Notes under the pieces: generated by a model
The model's input: the letters and a program-made list of their open reading frames with translations, nothing else
Database searches by the model: none
Told to the model about the DNA's origin: nothing
Shown: one piece after another, positions 1,426 to 46,969 of the stretch
Layout of the letters: each line of letters starts with the position of its first letter
Numbering within the stretch: the stretch's first letter is position 1
NCBI GenBank assembly: GCA_009692005.1
Contig: SHZZ01000001.1
Coordinates: 1-64,000, forward strand
DNA: 64,000 bases
Direction of reading: 5' to 3'
Source: Gemmataceae bacterium
GTDB taxonomy: Bacteria > Planctomycetota > Planctomycetia > Gemmatales > Gemmataceae
Program-made: the position numbers and the translations under genes

Positions 1426-3642
1426 TCAAGCCAAGGGCAGTGGGGTTTTCCCCGGGGATTCCTCAAAGCGTTCCAGGGTGATGCGAATATTTTTGAAAGC
1501 CGGGGTGCGCGACACCGGGTCAATCTCCTTGGGCACCAAAATGTTGGCTTCCGGATAATACATGAGGGCGTTTCCCTGGCGGATGGGGTGGGACCGCACG
1601 CGAATGGGCTGCAAAACCCCGGCGGAACTAACCACACACACGAGTTCGTCCCGTTTGAAACCAAGCTGCGCCATATCTTGCGGGTTGAGCAAGATCACAT
1701 CCCGGCGTTCCTGGCCGCGGTAAATGTCCTCTTCTTCATAAACCACGGTGTTGAATTGTCCCTCGCTGCGGACGGTCATCAGGCGAAGTTCCCCTTGCCC
1801 GAGGTTGTCAACCGGCGGGGAGACGCAGGAAAAGCTGGCCTGGCCTGATTCCCCGGGAAAATGGGTGTCGTGGAACACCCGCTTGGCCACATGAAACTCA
1901 TTCCGGGTTTTTTCCAGGGTTCGGATTTCTTGATAGCCAGGGACAATGTCGGCAATCATTTCCCGGATGGTTTGGTGGGCCCGGAGCTTGCGCCAATCTA
2001 CGGGGCCGCTATTGCCCAAAACTCTGCTGCCCAAACCGGCGATTATTTCCACTTCGGAGCGTGCCCCGGGGTAACGCGCCGGCCCGCCCTCGCTTAATCG
2101 GACAAAGTTGAACATCGATTCTTGGGTAGTGGGTTGGGCTTCTTCGTCTCGTGCCAAAACGGGCAGGATCAAAGTCTCTTTTCCCAGGCCCCAGGCATGC
2201 CCGGTGTTCAAAGTCGTATTTAAATAAACCACCAGCGGGGTTTTTTCCAAAGCTTGCTGGGCGAAGGAGGCATCGGGATTGCTGCCAAACAGGTTTCCCC
2301 CCAGGCAAAAGGCAACATCCATTTCGCCGTTGTGCGCGGCTTCCATGCAACCCATGGTGTCGAGGCCCGTGGTGCGGGGCAGGGAAAGGCCCAAATAACT
2401 TTCCAAGTTTTTGAGGAAGCCTTCACGCAGGTTGGGGACAACGCCCATGGAGCCAAGCCCCTGTACATTGGAATGCCCGCGGATGGGCAGGAGTCCGGCG
2501 CCGGGCTTTCCCACCATGCCCCGAAGCAGAGCAAGGTTGACAATCGAGCGGACATTTTCGGTGCCATGCAAGTGGTGCGTAATCCCCATGGTCCAGGCGA
2601 AAACCGCGTTTTTGGACTTGGAGAAAAGTTCCGCCGCTTGCAGGATTTCCACCTTCGACACGCCTGAGAGAGATTCAATGGTTTCCCAGGAAAGGTTGTG
2701 AACCATTTCCTTGAAATCAGAAAAGCCCTGGGTGGCCTGGTCAATAAACTCTTGGTTTTGGCTGGCGGATTCCAGGGTTGCCTTGGCAATGCCTGATAAC
2801 AGGGCCATGTCGCCGCCTATGTTTGGCTGCAGGTAAAGGCTGGCAATTTTGCTGCCAAAAAGAAGGCTCCAGGGATCGCTGGGGACTTTAAAATTCACCA
2901 GGCCGATCTCTCGGACCGGGTTGATGACGATGACTTTGCCCCCCCGTCGGCGAATTTGCATCAGGGTGCGCATGAGCCGGGGATGATTGGAAGCCGGATT
3001 GCCCCCGATCAGAAAGAACAAGTCGGTTTGATCCAGATCCTCGAGCGAGATGGTGGCGGTGCTGGTGCCCAAGGATTGCGACAGGCCAACGCCACTGGCT
3101 TGGTGGCAATAGTAAGAACAATTGTTGACGAAATTGGTGCCGTGCAGCCGGGCGAAAAGCTGTAATAGGAAGCCCGCTTCATTGGCAGAGCGGCCGGAGG
3201 CGTAGAAAAAATGCCGGTCGACTGGAGTTTCTCGCAGGCTGCTGGCGATTTTTTCCAGGGCGAATTCCCAATCCACCACTTGATAATGGGAACTGCCCGG
3301 CCCGGCATACAAGGGAGCAATCAACCGGCCGCTCATCTCCAGTTCCCGTGGGGAAAGGGTCTTCAACTGCTCGATGGAATATTTGTTGAAAAATTCAGGC
3401 GCCAGCCCATGTTGCATGTCAGCGACCATTGCCTGCAACGATTTTTTGCACACCTCGGGCCAATGGCCGGTTTCGTTTCGCATGCCTCCCTTCTGCCCGC
3501 CCATGCCCAGGGCGCAGGTTTTGCAGGCGTTTTTGCTGGTCATGGCGCGCCAAAGCCTGAGCCAGCCAACCTTGCTGGCCAGGCGCAGAGAATAAAAAAT
3601 TGCTCGCCAACCACCGGCGCTTTTAGGAATCTTCCAACCCAT
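1426..3642 (-). CDS. Molybdopterin-dependent oxidoreductase, FdhF/YdeP-like
   Basis: A 738-residue protein of the Mo-bisMGD oxidoreductase family (formate dehydrogenase alpha-like). Visible signatures are an N-terminal cysteine region, the segment LIGGNPASNHPRLMR typical of the cofactor-binding domain, GMVGKPGAGLLPIRGHSNVQG, and a C-terminal molydopterin-binding beta barrel (LRLMTVRSEGQFNT through EANILVPKEIDP). Only C40, C43 and C65 are present, rather than the four cysteines of the classical Fe-S motif. There is no Tat signal, so it is probably cytoplasmic. GGAGG lies about 9 bases before the ATG at 3642. No dedicated electron-transfer subunit is adjacent. Formate dehydrogenase activity is not established; FdhF/YdeP-like relatives have various or unknown substrates. 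Confidence 0.85.
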   Translation of the reverse strand: MGWKIPKSAGGWRAIFYSLRLASKVGWLRLWRAMTSKNACKTCALGMGGQKGGMRNETGHWPEVCKKSLQAMVADMQHGLAPEFFNKYSIEQLKTLSPRELEMSGRLIAPLYAGPGSSHYQVVDWEFALEKIASSLRETPVDRHFFYASGRSANEAGFLLQLFARLHGTNFVNNCSYYCHQASGVGLSQSLGTSTATISLEDLDQTDLFFLIGGNPASNHPRLMRTLMQIRRRGGKVIVINPVREIGLVNFKVPSDPWSLLFGSKIASLYLQPNIGGDMALLSGIAKATLESASQNQEFIDQATQGFSDFKEMVHNLSWETIESLSGVSKVEILQAAELFSKSKNAVFAWTMGITHHLHGTENVRSIVNLALLRGMVGKPGAGLLPIRGHSNVQGLGSMGVVPNLREGFLKNLESYLGLSLPRTTGLDTMGCMEAAHNGEMDVAFCLGGNLFGSNPDASFAQQALEKTPLVVYLNTTLNTGHAWGLGKETLILPVLARDEEAQPTTQESMFNFVRLSEGGPARYPGARSEVEIIAGLGSRVLGNSGPVDWRKLRAHQTIREMIADIVPGYQEIRTLEKTRNEFHVAKRVFHDTHFPGESGQASFSCVSPPVDNLGQGELRLMTVRSEGQFNTVVYEEEDIYRGQERRDVILLNPQDMAQLGFKRDELVCVVSSAGVLQPIRVRSHPIRQGNALMYYPEANILVPKEIDPVSRTPAFKNIRITLERFEESPGKTPLPLA

Positions 3643-3719: not shown

Positions 3720-4337
3720 ATGGAATCGCGGGTTCATCCCTGGCTTTATTCTTCAACGCTTCAGGAAAGCAGCAGGCTGGCCTCGGTAATTAAACCGATT
3801 CTGGGGCAGAATTTAACCGGGTTTCTTGTACTGGGGGTTTTTGGCTGCCTGGCGGCGTTGGCCTGGCAGCAACTTCGACTTGGCTTGGGCATCCCAGGAC
3901 ATGCCATTGTGAAAGCCGTTGTGCCCCTTGGCCTGGGAATCGCTCTGGTGCCATGGCGCGGGGGAGGAACCATTCAATCCCTCATCGCCGGTTTGCTCAC
4001 CCTGGTCATACCCGCGGCGCCGGGGGAGGGGAGCGCTTCACGGATAAGCCTGATTTGCCTCGGGCCGGTTCTCGACCTTTGTTTACTGAAAGGCAGCCGC
4101 GGAAGGTGGCTTCTCCTTTGCTTCGGCCTGGCGGGACTGTTGGCAAACCTGCTGGCGTTTTTGTCGCGGTTGCTGCCCTTATTGCTTGCCGGGGAAATTC
4201 CCAGGCGCAACTTAACCCAAGGCTGGTGGACTTATCCTCTTTGCGGTTTTCTGGCGGGAATGATGGCAGCGGCGGCGGTTTTTAAAACCCGCGCCTCACC
4301 CAAGGACTCTCCCCATGGAAATTCTTCTGGGCATTGA
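3720..4337 (+). CDS. Multi-pass membrane protein, unknown function
   Basis: A 205-residue hydrophobic protein with about six predicted membrane segments, the first near residues 34-52 and the last near 168-188, and a short polar N-terminus. I do not recognise a family with confidence; in size and hydropathy it resembles small permease subunits or ECF-type substrate-binding membrane proteins. Its last 23 bases overlap the start of the GIDDTD gene, so the two are almost certainly co-translated and probably work together. It is divergent from the molybdopterin oxidoreductase across 77 bases, which must hold both promoters. The ATG at 3720 has only a distant AAGGA, so the exact start is uncertain. 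Confidence 0.6.
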   Translation: MESRVHPWLYSSTLQESSRLASVIKPILGQNLTGFLVLGVFGCLAALAWQQLRLGLGIPGHAIVKAVVPLGLGIALVPWRGGGTIQSLIAGLLTLVIPAAPGEGSASRISLICLGPVLDLCLLKGSRGRWLLLCFGLAGLLANLLAFLSRLLPLLLAGEIPRRNLTQGWWTYPLCGFLAGMMAAAAVFKTRASPKDSPHGNSSGH

Positions 4338-5022
4338 CGACACCGACATTCCCGATTGGCCGGGAACCAACAAGCTGGCCATGGCCCTTGCCTTGCGGCT
4401 GGAAGAAAACCATGTCCACACGCGAAGGATCTTGCGGCATCAACTCTGGCTCGATGCCGCCGTCCCTTACACTTCGGGCAACGGTTCCGCCTCGATGCTC
4501 TTGAAGGCCGATTCGCTTGAGCAAATCCCGTGGCTGGAAAAATTCTGCGCCGGGTTCATTGAACCTTTGTGCCCCGAGGGGAGCGACCCAGCCATGTGTC
4601 TATGCCCTGCCAGCGAGGCAGTGGGGCTGACAAACCTTGGATGGAAAGCGACTCAGGAATGGGTGAGCCCAGCGGAGGCGATGGCGGTGGCCCGTGAGCG
4701 AGGAGTATTATTGCGCAGTTTAAAAGGGCGGGATCATGGGGTGGTTGGTGCGCTGGCAGCGGTGGGTCTGGCGGCTTCGGGGGAACAAGGGCGGGTGGTC
4801 TTCCATGAAAAGGGATATGGAAGCCTGCAAGGTGTCGTGGAGGTAGAAAAATTAATCCAATGGGGGATTAAGGTGGAGGAAGAAAGTACCGGCCAGATTT
4901 TGGATCATGGCCTGGTGGACTTGGTGAAAAAACTGCGGCCGAATATCCGGCATGGTTTGGAAGTGCTGTTTGTGGAAAAAGGCCCCGGCCGGGATGCATG
5001 GATAGCGCTGAAACGGCATTAA
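4315..5022 (+). CDS. TiaS-like GIDDTD protein
   Basis: A 235-residue protein opening with MEILLGIDDTD, the signature of the catalytic (TCKD) domain of archaeal TiaS, the enzyme that attaches agmatine to the wobble cytidine of tRNA-Ile2. A second TiaS-like element, GVVGALAAVGLAA, lies near residues 142-154. The OB-fold and zinc-ribbon tRNA-binding domains of full-length TiaS (about 420 residues) are absent. Bacteria normally make lysidine with TilS instead, so a tRNA role is doubtful. The overlap with the upstream membrane protein and the divergent molybdoenzyme suggest a different, perhaps ATP-dependent, function. The family resemblance is seen in motifs; the function is unknown. Confidence 0.65.
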   Translation: MEILLGIDDTDIPDWPGTNKLAMALALRLEENHVHTRRILRHQLWLDAAVPYTSGNGSASMLLKADSLEQIPWLEKFCAGFIEPLCPEGSDPAMCLCPASEAVGLTNLGWKATQEWVSPAEAMAVARERGVLLRSLKGRDHGVVGALAAVGLAASGEQGRVVFHEKGYGSLQGVVEVEKLIQWGIKVEEESTGQILDHGLVDLVKKLRPNIRHGLEVLFVEKGPGRDAWIALKRH

Positions 5023-39882: not shown

Positions 39883-40042
39883 CAGCCGTATTAATTTTAG
39901 TTCATTTTGGGTGGGCAGGGTGAGCAAGGGGACTATTATTCTAAAAAAAGGAGTTGCTGAGATTCCGGCAACACGCTCTGGCGGCTCTGAGTATAAATCC
40001 TTGTAAGAAGCAGATTTGCGAGTTCGGTCCCTTGGAGGGGGA

Positions 40043-43000
40043 ATGTCTGATAATCAATCGATTCGGGTTAGCGGCGCCAGGGAACATAACCTGCGGGGTG
40101 TGAACCTGGTTCTGCCCCGCAATCAGTTTGTGGTTTTTACCGGGGTCAGCGGTTCCGGTAAAAGTTCCTTGGCTTTTGATACGCTCTTTGCCGAGGGGCA
40201 AAGGCGCTACATTGAATCCTTATCCAGTTATGCCAGGCAGTTTCTCGGGCAAATGCAGAAGCCGGATGTCGATTTTATTTCCGGCCTTTCTCCCACCATT
40301 AGTATTCAGCAGAAAGCCGCGGGGCGAAACCCCCGCTCCACGGTGGGGACCATCACCGAAATTTACGATTATTTGCGGGTGCTCTTTGCCCGTGTTAGCG
40401 AGGCCTGGTGCCCGCAGTGTGGAAAAAAGGTCGAGGCGCAATCGCGTGAACAAATCATTGCCCGAATCCTGGCCATCCCGCACGGGACCCGACTATTGAT
40501 CCTGGCCCCCTTGATCCGAGCTCAAAAGGGCGAATACAAAGATCTTTTTGAGGATCTTTTGCGGCAAGGTTATGTGCGCGCCAGGGTGGATGGCGTGGTG
40601 CATAACCTGAATGAGACCTTGAACCTCGACCGGAAAATCAAACATACCATCGAGGTGGTAATTGACCGGCTCAAAGTGGAGCCGGATGCCCAGTCCCGCG
40701 TGGGCGAAACGGTGGAACAAGCTCTGCACCTGGGCAAAGGCAACTTGATTGTGGCCATGGTATCGGAAGCGGCTGGTTCGCCAGTTACTCAGGAACTGCT
40801 TTTTTCTTCCCTGCATGCCTGCGTTTCCTGCGGCGCAAGCCTTGACCCGCCTTCCCCGCAAATGTTTGGTTTCAATAGCCCCCAAGGCATGTGCCTGGAC
40901 TGCGACGGCCTGGGCATCCGTTACACTTTCGACCCGGACTTGTTGATTCCAGACACTAGCCTCAGTTTCCGCCAGGGCGCCATTCCCCTGGTTGGCAAAT
41001 TTGTTGGCATGGGGCGCTGGCGGAAGCACATTTTTGAAGGCCTGGCCAAAACCCTGGCCTTTGACATCGGTTTGCCCTGGCGGGATTTGCCGACTGAACA
41101 TCAGCGCCTTTTGTTGCATGGCAGCGGTACTCGGCACATTGCCTTTGAATGGAAGATGCGTGGAGGGAATATCTGGAAACATGGGGGTGTGTGGGAGGGG
41201 GTGGTTCCCCAGTTAATGGCCAGTTTTAAGAAAACGGCGTCTGGGCCCAGAAAAGCGCAACTGGATAAATACATGCGCGTGCTGAAGTGCGCCTCGTGCC
41301 TGGGCCAAAGATTGAACCCGCAAGCCCGGGCGGCGCGGGTGGCAGGCAAGACCTTGTGGGAACTTTGCTCGCTGCCGGTAGGGGACTTGGCCCAGTGGTT
41401 TGACCCGGTTCAAGGGCCTTTGGGGAAATCTTTTTCCCCGACACAGGCCATCATTGCTACCGAGGTGCTCAAGGAAATCCGCGGTCGGATCGGGTTTCTT
41501 TTGAATTTAGGCCTGGAATACCTGACCTTGGCTCGGTCTGCGCCAACGCTGTCTGGCGGGGAAGCTCAAAGAATCCGCCTGGCTGGCCAAATTGGCTGCG
41601 GCCTGGTGGGCGTTCTTTACATTCTCGACGAACCGAGCATTGGCCTTCACCCTGCCGATAATGACAGGCTGCTGAAAAGTTTGAAAAAACTCCGCGACCT
41701 GGGGAACACCGTGCTGGTGGTTGAGCATGATGAAGACACCATGCGCGCGGCGGATTACCTGGTGGATTTTGGTCCGGGGCCTGGGGTGCGTGGCGGCGAG
41801 GTGGTGGCCACTGGGAACTGGCAGGACCTGGCCAAAAACCCCAGAAGCCTGACGGGGAAATACCTGTCTCGCGAACTGGAGATCACCCGGCCGGGCAAGC
41901 CGAGGGAAGGGGCCGGGGCGGAGATCCGGGTGCTGGGGGCCAGGCAAAACAATTTGCGAAACCTCGAGGTTGGCTTTCCTTTGGGCCGTTTCATTTGCGT
42001 CACGGGGCCCAGCGGGTCGGGGAAAAGTTCTCTTTTGAATGAGATCTTGCGCAAAGGCTTGGTGCGATTGTTGCGCCAGGGGAATCAGGAGGAATCGTCC
42101 CCGGCGGAGGCCGGCGACCTGGAGGCTGGCCCGGATTCCCTGGGAGATTTTGATGCCATCAAGGGTAGTGAAGCCATTGATAAGGTGATCGATATCGATC
42201 AAACCCCCATCGGCAGGACGCCCCGGTCCAACCCCGCGACTTACATCAAAGTGTTTGATGAGATTCGGCAGCTCATGGGTGAAATGCCGGAATCCAAAGT
42301 GCGGGGGTATGCCGCGGGGAGGTTTAGTTTTAACCTGGCTGGCGGCCGTTGCGAGGCCTGCGAAGGGAACGGCAGCAACCGTCTGGAGATGGACTTTCTT
42401 GCCGATGTCTGGGTCTCCTGCCCTGTGTGCGAGGGTAAAAGATTTAATAGGGAAACGCTGCAAGTGCGTTACAAGGGGAAGAATATCCAGGAAATCCTGG
42501 AGATGGATATTCAAGAAGCGCTGGAGCATTTCAAGAACCACCCGAAAATCCGCGCCATGATCCAATCACTGCATGATGTCGGCCTTGACTACATGAAATT
42601 GGGGCAGCCAGCGCCTACGCTTTCAGGCGGGGAAGCCCAAAGGATAAAGCTGGCCAGGGAACTCTGCAAGCGCTCTACCGGAAGGACCCTTTACCTTTTG
42701 GATGAACCGACCACCGGCCTGCATTTCGACGACATCAAAAAACTTTTGAATGTGCTTCATGGATTCGTCGATGCGGGCAACACCGTCATCGTAATTGAGC
42801 ACAATCTGGATGTGATCAAGACCGCTGATTGGGTGATCGATCTTGGTCCTGAAGGCGGTGTGAAAGGCGGGGCGCTGATTTTTGAAGGTCCGGTGGAAAA
42901 GCTGCTGCGGCATAAAAAGTCCAAGACGGGCCTGGCTCTGGCCGCGCACCTTCGCCTGGGAAAAAATCCAGGGGGTGGCGCCAGCGCCATGGAACCTGCG

Positions 43001-46000
43001 ACAGCGCCAAGTATGGAGGGCCTTAAAGCCATCCGCGTGGAAGGGGCCTGCCAGCACAATCTGCGCAACTTGACCGTTTCCATTCCCAGAGACCAAATGA
43101 CCGTTTGTTCAGGTCCCAGCGGTTCGGGCAAAAGCTCCTTTTCCCTTGATACGGTTTATGCCGAGGGCCAAAGGCGGTACATCGAATCGTTGTCAGCTTA
43201 CGCCCGGCAATTCCTGGGCAAGATGCAAAAGCCCAAGGTGGAACATGTTTCCGGGTTATCTCCGGCTATTGCCATTGAGCAAAAATCCGCCAGCAAAAGT
43301 CCACGCTCCACCGTGGGGACCGTCACCGAGATTCATGATTATTTGCGAGTTCTTTACTGTCGGCTGGGAGTTCCCCATTGCCCGGATTGCGGCATTCCCG
43401 TGGGGACGCAAACCACGGATGAAATCATTGCCAAGATCACATCGTTTCCTGAAGGGACCAAGCTCTACCTATTGGCGCAGGTGGAGCGCCAAGGCCAGGA
43501 ATCTTACGACGAGGTGTTTGAAGAGATTAAACGCGCTGGGTTTATTCGCGTCCGCATCGATGGCAAAATTCATCTTGTGGAAAACCTTCCATCCATGGAT
43601 CACCGAAGGAAACACAGGGTGGAAGTCGTGATCGACCGGCTGGTGATTCGTCCTGGGCAGCGGTCGCGAATTTCCGATAGCGTGGAAACCGGGTTGAATC
43701 TGGGAAAGGGAATGATCAGCGCCGCCCTGGTGGAGGAGGCGGTTCCGGAAGAGGCCTGGAAGGTCGAGGCCTTCAGCCTGCATTTTTCTTGCGGCCAATG
43801 CGGCCGGGGTTTCGAGCAGCTCAACCCGCACCATTTTTCTTTCAACAGCCCTTTGGGCTGGTGTCCCGTGTGCGAAGGGCTGGGCAGGCAGCAAGGGGCC
43901 AACCCGGCGCTCTTGGTGCGCGACAAGGAAATGTCCCTGATGCAAGGGGCCTTAACTGCCTGGCCGGCCATGACGGAAGATCCTTCCTTTTTGCCCTTTG
44001 CGCGGGCCATTGCCAAGCGCGGCGGTTTCTCCTTGGAAAACCCCATGAGGGACCTTTCACGCGAGCAGCAAAAAATCCTGTTCCATGGGATGGGTGAGGA
44101 GTGGCTGGAAGCAGTCATGGAGAAGGGAAATTCTATTTTGTTTCAGTATAAGGGGGTGTTCCCTGCGCTGGATGAAGCTTCGAGGGCCAGCGCCCATTAC
44201 CGACAAAAGCTGGAAAGCTGGGTGGGGGATGTTTCTTGTGGAGCCTGCCAGGGATCCCGATTGCGCGAAGATGCCAGCGCCTTCCGACTGAGTTTTGGCG
44301 CCAGGGCGCCGTCTTTAACCCTGGGGAAGTTGCAATCTTTGCCTCTGGGCGAGTCGTGCAGGATGTTTTCCGAATTCAAACTCGACGCCAGGGAGAAAAA
44401 GATTGCGGGCGAACTGGTTCGGGAAATCCTCGGCCGCATACAACTGCTTGTCGATATTGGCCTGGAATACCTCACTTTGGACCGCCCTTCCCCTACCCTT
44501 TCCGGTGGGGAATCGCAGCGCATTCGCCTGGCGAGCCAGGTCGGCAGCGGCCTGACCGGGGTGCTTTATGTTTTGGATGAACCGACCATTGGCCTGCATC
44601 CCAGGGACAATGCACGCTTGCTGGCAGCTTTGAAAAAGTTGCGGAATCTCGGCAACACCCTGATTCTGGTGGAGCATGACCGGGAAGTAATCAGCTCGGC
44701 GGACCACCTTCTCGATTTTGGCCCAGGGGCGGGAGACCAGGGGGGCCGGATCACCGGCGAAGGGCCCCCTGCCCTGGTCATGAAAAACCCTAATTCGCTC
44801 ACCGGGCAGTATTTGTCAGGGAAGAAGTTCGTGCCGATCCCATTGGATAGGCGGCTGCGCCCGGGCGCCAAAGGATTGTTTCATTGCAAGGGCGGTTTGG
44901 TCGTATTAGGCGCCAGGCAAAATAATCTGCAGAATCTTCAGGTCACTTTTCCTTTGGGCGCCCTGGTGGGAGTTTCCGGAATGAGCGGGTCGGGAAAAAG
45001 CTCGCTGGTGAATGAGGTGCTTTATCAAACCCTGGCCAGACGGCTCAATCGCGCCAGGTTTCCCGCCTCCGCCCATGACGATATTCTTGGGCTGGAACAG
45101 ATCGACAAGGTCATCAATGTTGACCAGGATCCGATTGGGAATTCGCCGCAATCCAATCCCGCCACTTACACCGGACTATTTGATCATTTACGAGAGCTTT
45201 TCTCCCGGTTGCCCGATGCCAAGGTGCGGGGATATCTTCCCAGGCGCTTCAGCTTCAACAAGCCTGGGGGACGCTGCGACGCTTGCGAAGGCAATGGCCA
45301 GAAGCGGATTGAAATGCACTTCCTCCCTGATGTCTGGGTGGAATGCGAGATTTGTAAAGGCAAGCGCTACAACCCCGACACCTTGTCCGTTTGTTACAAG
45401 GGCCGGTCAATTGTCGATGTCCTGGAGATGCGCGTGTCCACCGCCCGGGAAGTGTTCGCGCATCAGCCGGTGATTCGCAGAATATTGCAGACCTTGGAGG
45501 ATGTTGGCTTGGGATACATGGCCTTGGGGCAGCCGGCGCCAACGCTTTCCGGGGGAGAAGCGCAGCGGGTGAAACTTGCCGCCGAACTCTCCCGCCCCAG
45601 CACCGGAAAAACACTTTACCTTCTCGACGAGCCTACCACCGGGTTGCATTTTGACGATGTGAGGAAATTACTGGAAGTGCTGCACCGGCTGGTGGAACTG
45701 GGAAACACGGTCATCGTGGTCGAGCACAATCTCGATGTATTGAAAAACGCCGACTGGATTATTGACTTGGGCCCGGAGGCTGGCAACCGGGGAGGTCTTG
45801 TAGTGGCGCAAGGAACGCCGGAAGCGGTGGCCATTGGCCAGTGGCAAAACCTCTCCGTTGGTCCGCGGTTGGAGCCTTTCAAGGGTGTTTCCCACACCGG
45901 CAGGGCTATAAAAACCGTGCTGCTCAAGGAGCACTATGCCGAGCGGACGACCAAGGACCCGGCTTGCCAAGCGGGGGATGAAAACCCAGGGTTGAACCTG

Positions 46001-46969
46001 GAGGAGTTGGGTTCGAAGGAAAAAATGCCCTGGCAGGTGGATGGCAAGGCCTGGCATACCCGCGACCGGGTCAGCCTCAATGGGCAAACCCCCAAGTGGG
46101 AAGGCGAAGCGCTGCTTCTGGTGGAAGAATTGATCCAGGGTCGGGAGGGTTTTAAGCCAACCGATTGGTCGGAGCGGGGTCTGGTGGAAATTACCGGGGA
46201 AGGGAAACCAGGCTCATGGTTTTTCCACGGGCTCACCAGCCATGAGTGGATTTTGGGGCTAGTCTTTCGGGTTCCCAAAAACACTTTCAAGCAGGAGGAA
46301 CTGAACCACGCTTTGGGTATTCCCACATTGAATGACACGGCAGGGGTTCAAGTCTATGGAAACGGGCCGCGGGTTCGGGTGCGCAACATGAAACGAGGCC
46401 CTTGGCAGGGAGTTTCCATTTATGCGTTTCGCAAAGTCGAGTTGGAAACGCCGGCGTTCCGTGAATTTCTTAATCAAGGGATGGGTGCTTACTTGAAGCA
46501 ATCGAAGCGGGTGGAGCAGAAGCCCGAGGACTTCATGCCATGGAAAAAGGACGGGGAGAAATGGCACCTGGGGGAAAAGGGCTTCCCTGTGGGGAAAAAG
46601 GCAACCTGGGACCGGGCTCTGCTAAAAGAGGTTATGGATTTATTTCTGGGGATAAAAGGGATTCGGCCCAAGTGGGACTCCCGCGATGCGGTGACATTCA
46701 AAGCGCCCAGGATCAATCATGGCTGGGTCATGGTGAAAACCAAGCTGGCGAATTTTCTGGAATTGCGGTTTTTCGGTCCGCGGGGAGCCGTCAACCATGA
46801 TTCAATCAAAGATTTGGGTTGCGAGCGGGAAATTCAATCGCACCGCGGCGCGGGTGACCTGGTCGTCATGCGTTTTACCCAATTCCAACATTTTTCCAGA
46901 ACTCGCCTGGCCGAGTTTCTCGATTTTCATGTTAAAAGTTTTCAATCCATGGACTGGAATTTAGAATAG
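40043..46969 (+). CDS. uvrA: Tandem double UvrA (excinuclease ABC subunit A-like) with duplicated C-terminal module
   Basis: A 2308-residue protein consisting of two complete UvrA units. Unit 1 (about 1-975) and unit 2 (about 990-1940) each hold two ABC ATPase halves; Walker A motifs GVSGSGKSS or GPSGSGKSS occur near residues 33, 654 and 1023, and GMSGSGKSS near 1645. Each half keeps LSGGE(A/S)QRI or LSGGEAQR(I/V)K signatures and DEPSIGLH, DEPTIGLH or DEPTTGLH Walker B regions. The second halves have zinc fingers (CEACEGNG...CPVC, CDACEGNG...CEIC). UvrA normally works as a dimer of about 950 residues in nucleotide excision repair; here the dimer is covalent. Residues about 1994-2308 are an extra duplicated module. 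GGAGG is 4 bases before the ATG. Confidence 0.93.
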   Translation: MSDNQSIRVSGAREHNLRGVNLVLPRNQFVVFTGVSGSGKSSLAFDTLFAEGQRRYIESLSSYARQFLGQMQKPDVDFISGLSPTISIQQKAAGRNPRSTVGTITEIYDYLRVLFARVSEAWCPQCGKKVEAQSREQIIARILAIPHGTRLLILAPLIRAQKGEYKDLFEDLLRQGYVRARVDGVVHNLNETLNLDRKIKHTIEVVIDRLKVEPDAQSRVGETVEQALHLGKGNLIVAMVSEAAGSPVTQELLFSSLHACVSCGASLDPPSPQMFGFNSPQGMCLDCDGLGIRYTFDPDLLIPDTSLSFRQGAIPLVGKFVGMGRWRKHIFEGLAKTLAFDIGLPWRDLPTEHQRLLLHGSGTRHIAFEWKMRGGNIWKHGGVWEGVVPQLMASFKKTASGPRKAQLDKYMRVLKCASCLGQRLNPQARAARVAGKTLWELCSLPVGDLAQWFDPVQGPLGKSFSPTQAIIATEVLKEIRGRIGFLLNLGLEYLTLARSAPTLSGGEAQRIRLAGQIGCGLVGVLYILDEPSIGLHPADNDRLLKSLKKLRDLGNTVLVVEHDEDTMRAADYLVDFGPGPGVRGGEVVATGNWQDLAKNPRSLTGKYLSRELEITRPGKPREGAGAEIRVLGARQNNLRNLEVGFPLGRFICVTGPSGSGKSSLLNEILRKGLVRLLRQGNQEESSPAEAGDLEAGPDSLGDFDAIKGSEAIDKVIDIDQTPIGRTPRSNPATYIKVFDEIRQLMGEMPESKVRGYAAGRFSFNLAGGRCEACEGNGSNRLEMDFLADVWVSCPVCEGKRFNRETLQVRYKGKNIQEILEMDIQEALEHFKNHPKIRAMIQSLHDVGLDYMKLGQPAPTLSGGEAQRIKLARELCKRSTGRTLYLLDEPTTGLHFDDIKKLLNVLHGFVDAGNTVIVIEHNLDVIKTADWVIDLGPEGGVKGGALIFEGPVEKLLRHKKSKTGLALAAHLRLGKNPGGGASAMEPATAPSMEGLKAIRVEGACQHNLRNLTVSIPRDQMTVCSGPSGSGKSSFSLDTVYAEGQRRYIESLSAYARQFLGKMQKPKVEHVSGLSPAIAIEQKSASKSPRSTVGTVTEIHDYLRVLYCRLGVPHCPDCGIPVGTQTTDEIIAKITSFPEGTKLYLLAQVERQGQESYDEVFEEIKRAGFIRVRIDGKIHLVENLPSMDHRRKHRVEVVIDRLVIRPGQRSRISDSVETGLNLGKGMISAALVEEAVPEEAWKVEAFSLHFSCGQCGRGFEQLNPHHFSFNSPLGWCPVCEGLGRQQGANPALLVRDKEMSLMQGALTAWPAMTEDPSFLPFARAIAKRGGFSLENPMRDLSREQQKILFHGMGEEWLEAVMEKGNSILFQYKGVFPALDEASRASAHYRQKLESWVGDVSCGACQGSRLREDASAFRLSFGARAPSLTLGKLQSLPLGESCRMFSEFKLDAREKKIAGELVREILGRIQLLVDIGLEYLTLDRPSPTLSGGESQRIRLASQVGSGLTGVLYVLDEPTIGLHPRDNARLLAALKKLRNLGNTLILVEHDREVISSADHLLDFGPGAGDQGGRITGEGPPALVMKNPNSLTGQYLSGKKFVPIPLDRRLRPGAKGLFHCKGGLVVLGARQNNLQNLQVTFPLGALVGVSGMSGSGKSSLVNEVLYQTLARRLNRARFPASAHDDILGLEQIDKVINVDQDPIGNSPQSNPATYTGLFDHLRELFSRLPDAKVRGYLPRRFSFNKPGGRCDACEGNGQKRIEMHFLPDVWVECEICKGKRYNPDTLSVCYKGRSIVDVLEMRVSTAREVFAHQPVIRRILQTLEDVGLGYMALGQPAPTLSGGEAQRVKLAAELSRPSTGKTLYLLDEPTTGLHFDDVRKLLEVLHRLVELGNTVIVVEHNLDVLKNADWIIDLGPEAGNRGGLVVAQGTPEAVAIGQWQNLSVGPRLEPFKGVSHTGRAIKTVLLKEHYAERTTKDPACQAGDENPGLNLEELGSKEKMPWQVDGKAWHTRDRVSLNGQTPKWEGEALLLVEELIQGREGFKPTDWSERGLVEITGEGKPGSWFFHGLTSHEWILGLVFRVPKNTFKQEELNHALGIPTLNDTAGVQVYGNGPRVRVRNMKRGPWQGVSIYAFRKVELETPAFREFLNQGMGAYLKQSKRVEQKPEDFMPWKKDGEKWHLGEKGFPVGKKATWDRALLKEVMDLFLGIKGIRPKWDSRDAVTFKAPRINHGWVMVKTKLANFLELRFFGPRGAVNHDSIKDLGCEREIQSHRGAGDLVVMRFTQFQHFSRTRLAEFLDFHVKSFQSMDWNLE
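46025..46966 (+). repeat. Internal tandem protein repeat at the C-terminus of the double UvrA
   Basis: Two homologous units follow the second UvrA unit. Unit A starts at 46025 (MPWQVDGKAWHTRDR) and unit B at 46535 (MPWKKDGEKWHLGEK). Both continue with a Trp-containing helix (PKWEGEALLLVEELI; ATWDRALLKEVMDLF) and then an aromatic-rich region (SHEWILGLVFRVP; NHGWVMVKTKLANFLELRFFG). Each unit is about 150-170 residues. I do not recognise the domain; the pattern resembles small YdhG/MmcQ-type or DNA-minor-groove proteins only vaguely. Confidence 0.65.

Follow-up and report, generated by a model that had tools for sequence, protein, structure and literature searches.

The gene pair described here, which encodes a small protein with a GIDDTD motif and a six-helix membrane protein, is a real module, and it is very probably linked to molybdenum or tungsten (Mo/W). 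It was found in a window of 64,000 nucleotides (the whole stretch of DNA that was analysed) from contig SHZZ01000001.1 of a Gemmataceae bacterium (assembly GCA_009692005.1). The pair recurs across many phyla beside Mo/W cofactor genes, and therefore probably represents an unrecognised tungsten-supply system. We lean towards a two-protein module for the supply of tungsten, or possibly of tungsten and molybdenum. The folds, gene coupling, exact co-occurrence, Mo/W context, tungsten-type riboswitches and co-occurrence with AOR on which this proposal draws rest on sequence, structure prediction and statistics.

A recurrent pair of genes

The locus is laid out in Table 1. The initial annotation had described a 235-residue protein that carries the GIDDTD and GALAAVG motifs, lacks tRNA-binding domains, overlaps a six-helix membrane protein and is divergent from a molybdopterin oxidoreductase. 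This description holds: both motifs lie where it had placed them, the match to TiaS covers the N-terminal part only, the open reading frames are present, and the AlphaFold model of the membrane protein (pLDDT 88.5) consists of six long helices. The overlap of the two genes likely reflects their translational coupling, and 77 bases separate the start of the membrane-protein gene from the divergent oxidoreductase gene. Elsewhere in the window, positions 40016-46969 form a single open reading frame of 2317 aa whose product has, by eye, a UvrA-like start, matches an ABC ATPase profile and is more than twice the usual length.

Table 1. Features of the GIDDTD locus (positions in the window)
Feature	Position	Strand	Details
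FdhF/YdeP-family molybdopterin oxidoreductase, divergent neighbour	1426..3642	-	TIGR01701, 689.8 bits (cut-off 582)
Six-helix membrane protein, predicted ECF S-component fold	3720..4337	+	205 aa; AlphaFold, Foldseek, VIA-align; family HMM E 5e-52
PGH motif of the membrane protein (residues 59-61)	3894..3902	+	weighted conservation P 0.97, G 1.00, H 0.89 (71 members)
Conserved Asp119 of the membrane protein	4074..4076	+	D 0.98, E 0.02 (71 members)
Conserved basic residue Arg150 of the membrane protein	4167..4169	+	R 0.76, K 0.14 (71 members)
GIDDTD protein, TCKD-type kinase-like	4315..5022	+	235 aa; AlphaFold pLDDT 93.4; superposition on TiaS
Overlap of the membrane-protein and GIDDTD genes	4315..4337	+	23 bases
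GIDDTD motif (residues 6-11)	4330..4347	+	G6, D8, D9, T10 and D11 invariant in 86/86
Thr18 of the GIDDTD protein	4366..4368	+	invariant in 86/86; aligns with Thr18 of TiaS
R41-H42-Q43, signature of the GIDDTD family	4435..4443	+	invariant in 86/86; HQ not in TiaS rows
GALAAVG motif of the GIDDTD protein (residues 145-151)	4747..4767	+	G145 invariant

Eighty of the 112 relatives found by a pattern-based genome scan, together with the window and six further loci, make up a set of 87 loci. Two pairs in it are the same (L009/L053 and L013/L026), leaving 85 distinct loci, which fall into 58 clusters at 65% identity. A homologue of the membrane protein is encoded beside the GIDDTD gene at 72 of the 87 loci (70 of the 85 distinct loci, 50 of the 58 clusters), and iterated profiles from three seeds converge on the identical 72 proteins, one per locus. 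The membrane gene lies directly upstream in 37 cases, directly downstream in 30 and at 3 to 4 kb in 5; it is on the opposite strand in two of the 72, and the overlap is exactly 4 bases at 31 of the 37 loci where it is directly upstream. The loci come from Planctomycetota, Bacteroidota, Chloroflexota, Acidobacteriota, Spirochaetota and Alphaproteobacteria, as well as from one member of the Desulfuromonadaceae, one genome labelled Gemmatimonadetes and two archaeal MAGs.

Neither the GIDDTD nor the membrane profile matches any of 60 control planctomycete windows. Among 392 planctomycete genomes each profile matches eight, and the two sets are identical (hypergeometric probability 8e-17, uncorrected for phylogeny). 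The coupling of the two genes that the initial annotation proposed is thus a recurrent one. That an FdhF/YdeP-like enzyme might recur as a third regular member, which it raised as a point to check, is not borne out: FdhF lies no more than 8 kb away at 7 of the 87 loci, five of which are the window and its closest relatives, and we rejected it as a regular partner.

Fifteen of the 87 loci are without the membrane gene, including the six closest to the window (L015-L020), where no remnant of it was found in the available sequence, which for L015 and L020 includes little upstream DNA. Since these six have no adjacent membrane gene, the GIDDTD kinase may do without the membrane protein. Two loci contain a tandem second GIDDTD copy (L070:6656-7428 and L084:8734-9456); that of L070 (Nitrobacter) is broken into two frames, and that of L084 lacks the RHQ segment.

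Folds of the two proteins

In single-sequence searches, the GIDDTD protein of the window matches the NCBIfam TiaS family (E 1.7e-10, 40 of 600 bits, residues 1-152 only) and methanogenesis marker 11 (E 4.1e-9, 36 of 255.8 bits); together these matches span residues 1-158, and both are far under the curated cut-offs. Pfam TiaS_TCKD scores 19.5 of 27 bits. The profile of the family alignment, which comprises 86 of the 87 proteins (L087 was omitted for its over-long start), finds TiaS structures with E 7e-13 and the TiaS-labelled entry 3u02 with E 1.4e-15, in each case over residues 2-151 only. At E 0.001 or better, 83 of the 86 members match marker 11 and 83 match TiaS, the best marker 11 match (E 5e-18) being better than the best TiaS match. 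Fifteen positions are invariant: G6, D8, D9, T10, D11, G17, T18, R41, H42, Q43, T53, N56, G142, G145 and G159. By these sequence comparisons, the protein resembles TiaS more closely than chance could explain.

The AlphaFold model superposes on TiaS over 151 residues (Z 22.8, rmsd 1.6 Å), and the first unrelated structure follows at Z 8.0. As far as the model goes, what the two proteins have in common is the kinase domain only; the later domains of TiaS are absent, because the GIDDTD protein stops at 235 residues. It is thus related to the kinase domain of TiaS without being a TiaS itself. Thr18, conserved throughout the family, is equivalent to the Thr18 of TiaS that gave the TiaS kinase domain (TCKD) its name; Terasaka et al. 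2011 reportedly found that this domain phosphorylates Thr18 and C34. TilS is present over its cut-off in all 10 GIDDTD genomes tested, and the GIDDTD protein is quite unlikely to be a tRNA enzyme. These results agree with the initial view that it probably carries out a different reaction from TiaS. ATP-dependent phosphoryl transfer is a rather likely activity of the protein, as we infer from its kinase-type domain.

Two other candidate relatives were rejected. In the fold search, HPPK-like pterin pyrophosphokinases rank after TiaS, none better than E 0.025 and with TM about 0.25, and have the common ferredoxin-like arrangement only. Entry 3u02, considered as a stand-alone relative of 252 residues, was dropped because it is titled TiaS of Pyrococcus furiosus and may be a fragment.

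The membrane protein of the window matches no Pfam or NCBIfam family. Among 71 of its 72 homologues (L084 was omitted for its over-long start), none matches an NCBIfam family and three match Pfam PF09819 (ABC_cobalt), at least one of them over its cut-off. In Foldseek, the top five hits of the AlphaFold model are all ECF S components, four RibU and one YkoE (structure 5edl), with E 0.04-0.25 and probabilities of 0.92-1.00, after which the probability falls to 0.10. VIA-align places S components in rows 1 to 11 (Z 9.4-11.0), the riboflavin, folate and thiamine types being among the nearest folds, followed by methane/ammonia monooxygenase subunits (Z 8.2-9.1); in this method a Z below about 13 can reflect a common arrangement of helical bundles. 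The predicted structure thus most likely has the S-component fold. At three loci (L059, L076 and L079) the membrane homologue belongs to a single run of genes that also encodes EcfT/CbiQ and a double ATPase of the ECF type, and EcfT is found near 6 of the 87 loci. The window's genome encodes a CbiQ elsewhere; none was found in 5 of 10 GIDDTD planctomycete genomes.

Molybdenum and tungsten context

Within 8 kb of the 87 loci, we found ModE-type regulators at 23, MoeA at 13, MOSC/MoaB at 10, MoaA at 10, MoaC at 8, AOR at 8, FdhF at 7, TupA at 4 and TonB receptors at 19. At five loci, an amino-acid-kinase-family protein resembles the Mo storage protein. At least one of 11 Mo/W gene types is present at 43 of the 87 loci (42 of 85 distinct loci) versus 3 of 60 controls, and at 25 (24 of 85) versus 2 of 60 once ModE and FdhF are left out; the controls are planctomycete windows of 16.7 kb, so that p-values for these comparisons are indicative, since the loci are not all planctomycete. 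The neighbour families MoeA, MoaB-type, MoaC, MoaE, MoaA, MOSC, AOR, TupA, WtpA and ModE-type were confirmed for representative proteins only: at L090, WtpA exceeds its cut-off, whereas the ModE representative reaches 84.3 of 98.5 bits and that of TupA 244 of 400.

Against a Mo/W reading counts the fact that no Mo/W gene was recognised up to 8 kb from 44 of the 87 loci, many of them planctomycete, and that at the window locus FdhF is the only Mo-related neighbour. No periplasmic oxyanion-binding protein with an ABC permease is encoded at the window locus. The initial annotation did not include the wider link to Mo/W cofactor genes and riboswitches.

Five Moco riboswitches (RF01055) were found, at L079 (2001-2120, 7788-7904 and 8958-9075), L057 (1535-1655) and L076 (2069-2192). 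One of those at L079 ends 96 bases upstream of the GIDDTD gene (start 8001), and another lies upstream of the ECF genes, which extend to the S gene. Downstream of the copy at L057 lie the gene for a lipoprotein that weakly matches a molybdopterin domain, a FecCD importer and the GIDDTD gene. Read from the alignments, stem P3 is missing in all five copies; Regulski et al. 2008 (PMC2408646) describe Moco riboswitches without P3 as accompanying tungsten-cofactor genes. The riboswitch is present in 3 of the 79 sources tested and absent from the window, and both results weigh against a tungsten reading.

At the level of whole genomes, the tungsten-enzyme family AOR (PF01314) occurs in 84 of the 392 planctomycete genomes, including all 8 with the GIDDTD protein versus 76 of the 384 others (Fisher 3e-6, uncorrected for relatedness). 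Importers were compared in 32 chosen genomes, 10 with the GIDDTD protein and 22 with AOR and no GIDDTD match. A TupA-type protein is encoded by 1 of the 10 versus 17 of the 22, a contrast confounded by class (0 of 8 versus 1 of 3 within the class of the window, p 0.27); a second TupA match (G342, E 5e-4) was set aside, as it overlaps the ModA of that genome. ModA-type matches occur in 7 of the 10 and are missing in the window's genome, G019 and G121. The window's genome, which is 100% complete, thus has neither a ModA-type nor a TupA-type match; it does encode MoaA, MoaC, PF00384 enzymes and AOR. Nothing linked was found around its AOR gene.

A recurring context is thus seen on three levels, among neighbouring genes, in the riboswitches and in the content of whole genomes, and it favours tungsten over molybdenum. 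We infer that tungsten is probably the main metal of the module.

Several further features of these genomes were observed. Small secreted or membrane-anchored proteins, grouped as one profile family by hand-picked seeds, occur in the transport gene runs of L059 (9024-9533), L055, L076, L082 (3530-3979) and L057 (1758-2228); that of L057 weakly matches Oxidored_molyb (E 4e-5, 23.7 of 24 bits), and these proteins could capture a substrate and have a pterin-binding ancestry. At L056, L073, L089 and other Bacteroidota loci, the membrane gene is immediately followed by a conserved set of genes for a lipoprotein-like protein (c6), a TonB receptor and a secreted protein (c11); neither c6 nor c11 matches a Pfam family over its cut-off. 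A pilin-like secreted DUF1559 protein is encoded within 2.5 kb at 27 of the 87 loci (for example L046:6539-7435, planctomycete) versus anywhere in 6 of the 60 controls (16.7 kb), and may replace the TonB/lipoprotein part at planctomycete loci. In Bacteroidota, a gene for a PpnP-type nucleoside phosphorylase lies just upstream of the ModE-type regulator (L091, L093, L094, L087 and L056), adjoined by AOR in some; at L078, a different nucleoside phosphorylase is encoded some 3 kb upstream. In three GIDDTD planctomycetes (G045, G190 and G246), the AOR gene is near MoaC and away from the GIDDTD locus (G045:C1:5688599-5691414, L157). Finally, matches to molybdopterin oxidoreductases in G198:C151 and G121:C1299 contain one in-frame TGA, as in a selenocysteine enzyme.

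Proposed function and comparison with known systems

The question arises as to what the two proteins would do together. Resemblance to S components implies that some small species is imported, which is the direction that we propose for the module, and the TCKD-type partner implies ATP-dependent handling of what is imported. As an ECF-type S component, the membrane protein would capture, outside the cell, a species that bears tungsten or is a precursor of the cofactor, and would bring it across the inner membrane. Power may come from a dedicated EcfA-EcfA'-EcfT in some phyla, and from something else, or nothing dedicated, in Planctomycetes. The GIDDTD protein would be a cytosolic, ATP-using TCKD-type enzyme acting on the incoming ligand or cofactor precursor, which it may trap or activate for assembly of the tungsten cofactor, without a role in tRNA modification.

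Four rival readings were weighed. The membrane protein, elsewhere a TonB receptor with a FecCD-type importer, may take up chelator-bound tungstate or molybdate, the GIDDTD kinase modifying the chelator inside and so releasing the metal. TonB-dependent receptors near 19 loci (Pfam-verified in one), TupA or WtpA at five loci, and L057, where a FecCD permease and a Peripla_BP_2 protein accompany the GIDDTD gene and no S component, are in line with such a chelate route; against it, none of the 49 planctomycete loci has a TonB receptor nearby. We regard it as possible, though unlikely. A little less likely is the salvage of a pterin or nucleoside cofactor precursor, imported by the membrane protein and phosphorylated by the GIDDTD protein. 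S components do bind vitamins, and the riboflavin, folate and thiamine types are among the nearest folds; other S components pair with salvage enzymes, a precedent being QrtT-QueK (PMC11477304). The membrane protein also has a conserved acid, Asp119, and PpnP adjoins five Bacteroidota loci. Yet the de novo genes are there, MoaA in 10 of 10 GIDDTD genomes and MoaC in 9 of 10. A test of salvage on GIDDTD genomes lacking MoaC came down to one of 10, G416, and was dropped; MoaA is present there, so an assembly gap is as likely as a true loss of MoaC. Moreover, molybdopterin is very oxygen-labile, which makes its external supply doubtful.

The doubts about the remaining two readings are similar or greater. 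In the one, about as improbable as salvage, the GIDDTD protein activates tungstate or a pterin with ATP in the cytosol, like MoeA or MobB, with the membrane protein acting as an importer in its own right within the same regulon. The 15 loci without a membrane gene, several of them beside amino-acid-kinase-family proteins, suit this arrangement, as does a tungsten-specific route with MoeA1 and MobB in Methylorubrum (PMC13197769); the strict co-occurrence in planctomycetes and the gene overlap, however, favour a joint step. The other makes the GIDDTD protein a bacterial descendant of TiaS that modifies tRNA or RNA. The protein has the TiaS fold and the conserved Thr18, but the later TiaS domains are absent, TilS is present in all 10 genomes, the RHQ signature replaces a TiaS segment and the context is one of Mo/W genes, so that we consider this very improbable.

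If the module supplies tungsten as we propose, it could, tentatively, define a new class of tungsten acquisition, with ECF-type capture and a TiaS-type kinase trapping the cargo, in tungsten-enzyme organisms without TupABC or ModABC; the GIDDTD superfamily, perhaps including methanogenesis marker 11, would then act in Mo/W cofactor metabolism and not on RNA. Both folds are already known, from ECF capture proteins and TCKD kinases. In the largely open-access literature searched, we found no paper describing the pair or its link to tungsten. Among 3,683 bacteria that use Mo and 249 archaea, a 2018 survey (PMC6147048) counted 278 and 13, respectively, with no known Mo/W importer, and concluded that further uptake systems may exist. 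The GIDDTD/membrane module is a concrete candidate for such a missing system. A kinase domain known from tRNA modification would thereby enter metal-cofactor metabolism, and a line of enquiry is suggested for methanogenesis marker 11.

Compared with known systems, the GIDDTD protein shares with the TiaS kinase domain (TCKD; PF22641 / NF040849) its fold, the GIDDTD motif, Thr18 and GALAAVG. It differs from TiaS by the absence of tRNA-binding and agmatine domains, by a score under the equivalog cut-off, by its own RHQ signature and C-terminal part of about 80 residues, and by its gene context. Methanogenesis marker 11 (TIGR03280), although matched by nearly all members, has some 134 initial residues that GIDDTD proteins lack, the match of the window protein covering profile positions 135-288 of 292. 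With the ECF S components (RibU, ThiT, YkoE, FolT, BioY and PanT) the membrane protein has in common the predicted six-helix fold and, for some members, neighbouring EcfT and ECF ATPases; it is set apart by its PGH motif, a link to Mo/W rather than to vitamins, and the lack of an NCBIfam match. With TupABC, WtpABC and ModABC, the module shares the genomic and regulatory context, whereas the protein architecture is unrelated and the module of the window has no substrate-binding protein.
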